Of a stretch of 64,000 nt of DNA, positions 29,837 through 30,717 are shown piece after piece. Each line of letters begins with the position of its first letter. Position 1 is the stretch's first letter. The notes beneath the pieces were generated by a model, which was not told the origin of the DNA, did not search any database, and was given only the letters and a program-made list of their open reading frames with translations. The position numbers and the translations under genes are program-made. The stretch is from NCBI RefSeq assembly GCF_011064825.1, contig NZ_CP048751.1, forward strand, positions 248,001 through 312,000, written 5' to 3'. The DNA is from Brevundimonas mediterranea. GTDB taxonomy: Bacteria; Pseudomonadota; Alphaproteobacteria; Caulobacterales; Caulobacteraceae.

Positions 29837-30011
29837 CGCCCTGCCCTTGCGCCCCGGGCCAAGGCCGCCCATATGGGGAGGGTCGATCTCTCTGCGTAAC
29901 GCCGCTGCTCCCTTTGCATCACGCACCGAGGTCCAAACGCCGATCCCATTCAGACCCGACAGGCCGACCAGGGATCCCTCCCTGCGGCCAACGCCAGACG
30001 GAGGTCTCCAA

Positions 30012-30224
30012 ATGGCTACCGGCACTGTTAAATGGTACAACCCCACCAAAGGCTACGGCTTTATCGCTCCCGATGACGGCGGCAAGGACGTCTTCGTCCA
30101 CGCCTCGGCTGTCGAAACCTCGAGCGTCGGCTCGCTGAACGAAGGCCAGAAGATCTCCTACGAGATCGAGCGCGACTCGCGCTCCGGCAAGGAATCCGCC
30201 GGTCGCCTTACGGCGGCTGAGTAG
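30012..30224 (+). CDS. cspA: Cold-shock protein, CspA family
   Basis: A 70-residue OB-fold RNA chaperone with the RNP1 motif KGYGFIAP and RNP2 [12 protein letters not shown] 30012 has GGAGG seven bases upstream. A leader of about 175 bases separates it from the upstream gene; such long leaders in cspA mRNAs act as thermosensors, but no structure was verified here. The stop is TAG (30222-30224), and the same reading frame continues without another stop for 69 codons into an IF-1-like segment. Confidence 0.95.
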
Positions 30225-30434
30225 GACACGCTTCGGAACACCATCGCCTTCGACGGCGAGGTGACCAAGCTCCTGCCGCTGGGCGGCCGCAAGGTCCGCC
30301 TGGACAACGGCCACGTCGTAACGGTTCTGCCCACGCTCGGTACGCCTCAGGGCGTCTCCGGGCTGGGTGATCCGGTCGTGGTCGAGATCGCCTTCAATCA
30401 GCTGAAGGGCTGGCGCCTCGCGCGCCGGCCCTGA
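30225..30434 (+). CDS. IF-1-like OB-fold segment in frame after cspA stop; start unresolved
   Basis: After the cspA amber stop the frame stays open for 69 codons with strong high-GC third positions. The translation contains IAFDGEVTKLLPLGGRKVRL, then DNGHVVTVLP and GDPVVVEIAFNQLKGWRL. These line up with bacterial initiation factor IF-1 (its QGTVLETLPN, ENGHVVTA, GDKVTVELTPYDLSKGR). There is no ATG, GTG or TTG before the first strand: the only usual start is GTG 30261, which removes beta strand 1. Possible routes are stop-codon readthrough as a CspA-IF1-like fusion, a rare start codon near the TAG or ATC at 30243, or a decayed gene. Confidence 0.5.
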   Translation, partial: DTLRNTIAFDGEVTKLLPLGGRKVRLDNGHVVTVLPTLGTPQGVSGLGDPVVVEIAFNQLKGWRLARRP

Positions 30435-30459: not shown

Positions 30460-30717
30460 ATGACCCCGCTCGCCGACATGATCCCCTCGATGACCGACGC
30501 CGATCTGGTGACCCTGCGCGCCAACGCCGCCCGTCTGGTCGAACACGGCGCCTCGACCCAGGTCATGGCCGCCAGCGACATCCTGCCGGTCATCGACGCC
30601 GAAGTCGCGCGCCGCGCCGCCCTGCCCAAGGCCGCCAAGGCCCCGGTCAAGCGCGCCGCCCCCAAGAAGAAGCTGCCCCCCGTCACCGGCCACCAGACCG
30701 CCCTTCCCTCCAGCTGA
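30460..30717 (+). CDS. Small conserved-looking basic-tailed protein, function unknown
   Basis: An 85-residue protein with ATG 30460 preceded by AGGAC. The N half is helical (LADMIPSMTDADLVTLRANA, then ILPVIDAEVARRAALP), and the C third is Lys/Ala/Pro-rich (AAKAPVKRAAPKKKLPP), like a nucleic-acid-binding tail. There is no signal or membrane segment. It follows the IF-1-like segment by 25 bases, so it may be expressed with cspA. Its function is not known. Confidence 0.65.
   Translation: MTPLADMIPSMTDADLVTLRANAARLVEHGASTQVMAASDILPVIDAEVARRAALPKAAKAPVKRAAPKKKLPPVTGHQTALPSS

Follow-up and report, generated by a model that had tools for sequence, protein, structure and literature searches.

The forward strand of the window, that is, the whole stretch of 64,000 nucleotides of Brevundimonas mediterranea DNA analyzed here, encodes at 30012..30224 a cold-shock protein of 70 residues (csp; PF00313, 77.2 bits). 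The coding part of this gene (30012–30221) is followed by an amber stop codon (TAG, 30222–30224). Together with the last Glu codon and the next G, this stop spells GAGTAGG (30219..30225, forward strand), a Shine-Dalgarno-like sequence and putative ribosome site. Past the TAG, the csp frame stays open for 69 codons (30225–30431) and is closed by TGA (30432–30434), with the translation DTLRNT-IAFDGEVTKLLPLGGRKVRLDNGHVVTVLPTLGTPQGVSGLGDPVVVEIAFNQLKGWRLARRP. The first six of these codons (GAC ACG CTT CGG AAC ACC; 30225..30242, forward strand) form a linker without a canonical start. The remainder and the TGA (30243..30434, forward strand) specify a protein of 63 residues that we call IFL; its assignment as an IF-1-like OB protein draws on conservation, pN/pS, profile searches and a structure model.

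An earlier note on this DNA had described the frame past the TAG as coding-like and devoid of ATG, GTG or TTG upstream of the first β-strand. Both statements proved accurate: the GC content by codon position over the 69 codons is 0.74/0.45/0.88, and the earliest in-frame ATG, GTG or TTG past the csp stop is a GTG at 30261, within strand 1. The length of the open frame had to be rejected as evidence for a gene, since 477 of the 2274 stop-to-stop intervals in the window also reach 69 codons. The signal that exceeds chance is conservation, not length.

A strong RNA hairpin covers the last IFL codons (30406..30432, forward strand; 11 pairs, GC, shuffle z −2.67), with no terminator-like run of T at this site. 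On visual inspection, a comparable inverted repeat rich in GC often follows csp in loci without IFL, so that conservation of the C-terminal residues GWRLARRP of IFL may in part reflect the RNA. Scanning the locus for promoters and terminators returned none, and Rfam gave nothing above gathering scores between 29830 and 30500. The csp leader (about 29885–30011, forward strand) is long, and on visual comparison it looks much like other Brevundimonas csp leaders; on this leader the Rfam model of the cspA thermoregulator reaches 13.8, with a cut-off of 78. On the 3' side of IFL lies a gene of 85 codons (30460–30717, forward strand; MTPLADMIP...), which has no Pfam or NCBIfam match at an E value of 10. 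It has a match in 75 of the 131 genomes of the genus and follows csp even in loci without IFL.

Conservation and loss of IFL in Brevundimonas

With the 69-residue translation as query, relatives were found in 41 of 131 genus genomes. All 44 listed places were examined and correspond to 42 loci (L002–L043). In 36 of them (L002–L037), IFL lies directly behind csp at a spacing of 18–69 nt to the conserved block; L043 is a diverged, csp-adjacent IFL, and L038–L042 are related genes without csp directly upstream. The named records matched by a profile of the family include those of B. mediterranea, B. intermedia, B. aurantiaca, B. vesicularis, B. nasdae, B. diminuta and B. abyssalis (27 loci). An alignment of 22 orthologues contains 23 invariant columns. 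Because the loci share ancestry, all raw locus counts given here overstate the number of independent observations.

The ten loci whose IFL sequences are most similar to that of the window (group A, L002–L011) all lack a canonical start. An IFL protein tree unites the four members that it includes (97/94), and the csp-based trees did not recover group A as one clade. Pooled pN/pS in group A is 0.21 for nine sequences (L003 is identical to L002 and was left out), compared to 0.105 for csp. Among the 12 of 36 sequence pairs listed, dS reaches 0.45, and none of the ten loci contains an internal stop. Other sets gave pN/pS values of 0.30 (L012–L018 with L021 and L027), 0.31 (L031, L032 and L035), 0.16 (L020, L023 and L024), 0.155 (L028–L030) and 0.185 (L033 and L034, on nine changes); the pair L029/L030 gave 0.73 on six changes. 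These comparisons indicate that IFL is a real, conserved, csp-linked gene under purifying selection, also where no ATG, GTG or TTG precedes strand 1.

Most of the genus lacks IFL or has it in decayed form. In 94 of the 131 genomes, incomplete ones included, no csp-linked IFL was detected at an E value of 1e-3. We examined 26 IFL-less loci, drawn from the 39 genomes that contain the 85-codon gene without a csp-linked IFL. In L148, L149 and L158, csp is followed by C-terminal remnants of IFL (E 2e-5 to 1e-3), as may also be the case in L145 (0.027) and L147; scores in the rest were insignificant. Two of the loci that retain IFL, L036 and L037, carry a frameshift inside the gene. L130, which is placed among the loci of group A, no longer has IFL, and the last codon of its csp is GAA. 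The suggestion of the earlier note that IFL may be a decayed infA paralogue thus fits the loci with a frameshift or remnants; for the start-less group, purifying selection speaks against it. One could still argue from the same losses, remnants, frameshift and the position of L130 that IFL is on its way out in the window's group as well, is no longer usefully translated there, and owes its conservation to a lag after recent start loss. The constraint in group A at the observed dS, combined with the absence of internal stops, would then require several recent and parallel losses of the start codon, and we consider this scenario unlikely.

Relationship of IFL to IF-1

Searches with the single sequence remained below threshold (PF01176: 12.4 bits, cut-off 30.2; TIGR00008: 18.4 bits, cut-off 61.15), and therefore we used a profile of the family. 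This profile matches solved IF-1 structures (2n78, E 1.8e-7; 1ah9, E 3.5e-7), in a search in which designed repeat proteins rank above the IF-1s by adding up weak repeats. Each of the 22 sequences in the alignment has a PF01176 match when E values up to 1 are admitted, the best being 0.00028. An AlphaFold model of IFL (pLDDT 77.5, pTM 0.63) contains strands at residues 2–10, 16–20, 25–28 and 44–48, and the nine best Foldseek hits of this model are IF-1s (probability 1.00, query TM up to 0.69), with a best E value of 3e-3 and none at 1e-3. The cold-shock domain PF00313 does not match IFL at E values up to 10. The resemblance to IF-1 noticed in the translation by the earlier note is thus borne out by the family profile, though single-sequence matches are subthreshold. 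Taken together, profile and predicted fold indicate that IFL is an IF-1 homologue, which aligns with IF-1 (infA; PF01176, TIGR00008) over its full length and shares its OB fold.

Yet IFL is not IF-1 proper. A basic segment of the type TAGKMRKNxIR is absent from all 17 IFL rows of the alignment and present in the genome's own infA, encoded elsewhere (G000:C1:145342-145527), and in 19 rows of a second infA (infA2) from other Caulobacteraceae, which were chosen by a pattern that contains this segment. In addition, IFL scores fall below the IF-1 cut-offs, and the C-terminus of IF-1 reads KGRITYRFK where IFL has GWRLARRP. A tree separates IFL and its GWRL-ending relatives from infA and infA2 with support of 100/99. 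With the basic segment missing, IFL is more plausibly an OB protein that binds RNA or ribosomes as an accessory to Csp than a working IF-1; most likely, it would be a partner of Csp that is present at a low level and binds RNA or the ribosome.

IF-1-like proteins that end with GWRL or similar also occur at places that are not behind csp (L038, L039, L040, L041, L042 and L100). An upstream Met is visible in four of these six, L039 and L041 being the exceptions. These proteins form a family in Caulobacteraceae.

In other Caulobacteraceae, infA2 often follows csp. Twenty places taken from the list of matches represent 19 loci, because L101 and L102 belong to one genome. The gap between csp and infA2 is −1 to 13 nt in eight of these loci, 93–116 nt in five and more than 600 nt in two, and no csp was found in the other four. 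Tight junctions read TAAATG, TGATG, TGATTG, TGACATG and so on. As judged from this gene order, coupling of infA to csp does exist outside Brevundimonas. Like IFL, infA2 is an OB protein encoded behind csp; unlike IFL, it starts with ATG, GTG or TTG and has a full IF-1 sequence. Descent of IFL from a csp-linked infA2 is suggested by synteny, but the 73-column tree, with the split described above, does not show it.

Possible routes of IFL translation

An in-frame ATG, GTG or TTG between the csp stop and the conserved IAFDG motif at the beginning of IFL is present in 18 of the 36 csp-linked loci and missing from the other 18. Going back as far as the previous stop in the frame adds no start in 16 of the start-less loci; the other two, L022 and L028, have starts only within csp. 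All 18 nevertheless encode F at position 3 and G at position 5, with A or S at position 2 and D, E or N at position 4, while codons 2–5 vary at third positions. This pattern suggests that ribosomes read the stretch. The linker behaves similarly: across 28 unique linkers, the IFL frame contains no stop in 399 codons, compared to 15 stops in 751 codons of the other two frames. A codon-usage score for the linker ranks the IFL frame best in 33 of the 36 loci (exceptions are L009, L022 and L026, and L021 is a narrow case) and in 12 of 14 representatives, which are not all independent. In the 26 IFL-less loci the csp frame scores best in only five and contains 13 stops. An open, coding-like linker implies that translation probably enters near the csp stop.

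One way to enter there would be amber readthrough, which the earlier note had proposed as the source of a Csp-IFL double-OB protein, and which would apply to species with IFL in the csp frame, that of the window included. IFL does share the frame of csp in 29 of the 36 loci, each of which has TAG at the end of csp and no second stop in the linker, and linker codon 3 specifies Leu in 24 of these 29 (TTG, CTT or CTC). Following the proposal in the same note to look for a true fusion in relatives, we found one: the metagenome protein P0098 is an uninterrupted in-frame csp-IFL fusion that has Glu in place of the stop, encoded on a single contig of 1112 bases that could be an error. However, the other seven loci have IFL out of frame (+1 in L020, L022, L023, L024 and L028; +2 in L033 and L034). 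A one-base difference right after the TAG shifts IFL off the csp frame in L028 relative to its sisters L029 and L030, and the linker reading GDIVxFRDxRI is kept across all three despite the change. TAG closes csp in 31 of the 36 loci with IFL, but also in 20 of the 26 without; retention of TAG was therefore rejected as evidence for readthrough. Given the out-of-frame loci and the frequency of TAG in the absence of IFL, readthrough is not the general mechanism, and we regard its operation in the frame-0 species as quite improbable.

Two further database proteins join csp and IFL sequences. P0097, an entry filed under the fungus Friedmanniomyces endolithicus, was rejected as a fusion because, by its sequence, it looks like a eukaryotic gene model that skips the stop on contaminant DNA; this DNA is probably a Brevundimonas contaminant with a spliced gene model. 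In P0095, the frame of csp runs on into the C-terminal portion of IFL; a deletion appears to have taken out the end of csp and the beginning of IFL.

The end of csp itself may point to initiation of a separate gene. The duplex of the GAGTAGG segment was calculated at −4.6 kcal/mol in the window, and 18 of the 36 IFL-bearing loci reach −6.1 at this site. The csp gene ends with Glu in 27 of these 36 loci and in 20 of the 26 IFL-less loci; this codon is GAG in all 27 of the former and GAA in 19 of the latter 20. Elsewhere in csp of the loci with IFL, GAA outnumbers GAG by 116 to 68. The exact sequence GGAG occurs in 20 of 36 loci with IFL and in none of the 26 without, and the window has TGAG. 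A phylogenetic test of the GAG/GAA contrast found three independent pairs, all of which agree; with p = 0.25 these are too few. Readthrough would leave the terminal GAG of the out-of-frame locus L022 without a reason. The ribosome signal for IFL would be the last codon of csp together with its stop.

Several relatives have canonical starts close to this signal: TTG at +6 from the csp stop in L026, L031, L032 and L035, and ATG or GTG at +4 in L020, L023 and L024. These seven loci have a candidate start in the range from about −8 to +10 nt around the csp stop, which we took as typical of a termination-reinitiation pair. ATC codons are found at or near the stop in L022 (+1), L028 (+7) and L029/L030 (+6), 7 nt after a TGA in L043, and overlapping the stop (TAATC) in L033/L034. 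Other linkers have starts farther away, namely ATG at +45 (L012 and L013) or +51 (L027), TTG at +27 (L025) and GTG at +51 (L014–L018, L036 and L037).

In the window, we consider three candidate starts on the forward strand: ACG at +3 (30228..30230), CTT at +6 (30231..30233), where L026, L031, L032 and L035 have TTG, and ATC at +18 (30243..30245), which encodes the first residue of IAFDG. Among the readings put forward in the earlier note, such a rare start is the best supported. No single near-cognate codon near the stop is conserved across the start-less frame-0 loci; AAG takes the place of ACG in L007, L009 and L019 (and also in L012, where ATG stands at +45), and at the position of CTT, L006 has CGC and L019 has CCT. 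The codon at 30243 is ATC in all 36 loci. We rejected this invariance as evidence for a start, because ATC is nearly the only Ile codon that these genes use elsewhere (73 of 74). According to the sections of PMC10666635 available to us, which cite Hecht 2017, ATT, a codon closely analogous to ATC, has about 0.3% of the efficiency of ATG. An in vitro study from 2023 reports, in the part available, that the first two codon bases tolerate only Watson–Crick pairs and that third-base mismatches are also poorly tolerated (PMC10158994). By these rules ACG and CTT would be disfavored more than ATC, and ATC should be weak too.

A standard gene finder would choose none of these codons, but the GTG at 30261..30263 (forward strand), which would yield a protein of 57 residues. 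GTG at this position, codon 7 of IFL, is found in 14 of the 18 start-less loci compared to 2 of the 18 with an upstream start (about three of six versus two of seven lineages by our own grouping), and 21 of 95 database proteins are 57 residues long, for example P0034, which begins at this residue. On the other hand, the codon is GTC, and thus no start, in the start-less loci L019, L021, L033 and L034. Furthermore, the shorter product would lose most of strand 1 (residues 2–10 in the model), the residues of codons 1–5 are largely kept in start-less loci, and the Shine-Dalgarno score for this GTG is weak (−1.1 to −1.5 in group A). A start at 30261 is thus a live alternative, with a small chance of being correct.

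Proposed coupled initiation and its implications

Our preferred explanation, which we hold to be somewhat better than an even bet, is that IFL is a separate, conserved, csp-linked gene that is coupled to csp by termination-reinitiation and that uses a non-canonical start in the window's group. Initiation would take place a few bases downstream, by ribosomes that have completed csp or have bound to its Shine-Dalgarno-like end. Relatives would use TTG, ATG or GTG and possibly ATC; in the window's group the start would have shifted to one of the non-canonical codons ACG 30228, CTT 30231 or ATC 30243, and the yield of IFL would be low and linked to csp. A non-canonical start is the most probable one in this group of species. 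As in part of the IFL loci, the downstream start of known termination-reinitiation pairs lies a few bases from the upstream stop, according to the accessible portions of PMC6728339 and PMC10666635. Unlike such pairs, the window's group has no ATG, GTG or TTG before strand 1, and the linkers measure 18–69 nt.

Several observations weigh against coupled reinitiation, among them the lack of a conserved near-cognate codon close to the stop, the small number of independent GAG/GAA pairs and the failure of the csp-based trees to recover group A. In addition, the accessible text of PMC10666635 states that coupling is nearly abolished by about 20 nt from the stop, and that in E. coli gene pairs it falls by 40–80% at 14 nt and is nearly lost at 38 nt; ATC 30243, at 18 nt, is close to this limit. 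The codon-7 GTG is more common in start-less than in start-bearing loci, and L130, placed among group A, lacks IFL.

A more specific version of coupled reinitiation can be put forward tentatively, as a possibility with the odds against it. A group of species would maintain IFL by purifying selection and initiate it only on codons other than AUG, GUG and UUG (AUC, ACG, even CUU) from the ribosome-binding site at the end of csp, with the yield set by the fidelity of reinitiation. If this is true, IFL levels would depend on this fidelity, and hence on initiation factors and on Csp themselves. The gene infC, which encodes an initiation factor, starts on AUU. With the case proposed here it shares a start other than AUG in a gene of the initiation-factor kind; it encodes a different factor, and the start of IFL is only a candidate. 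The dependence on reinitiation fidelity would amount to a cold-tuned feedback, analogous to the AUU of infC.

No paper on this gene was found among titles and the starts of abstracts. If our interpretation is correct, IFL would be one of the rare conserved bacterial genes whose non-canonical initiation is indicated by comparative genomics alone, of a kind that gene finders truncate or miss. The comparisons also describe an IF-1-related family with a C-terminal GWRL and without the basic segment of IF-1, of which the window's member falls below Pfam and NCBIfam cut-offs. The locus offers a natural setting for testing start-codon discrimination in Alphaproteobacteria, and translational coupling would tie together two OB-fold proteins, Csp and a relative of IF-1.
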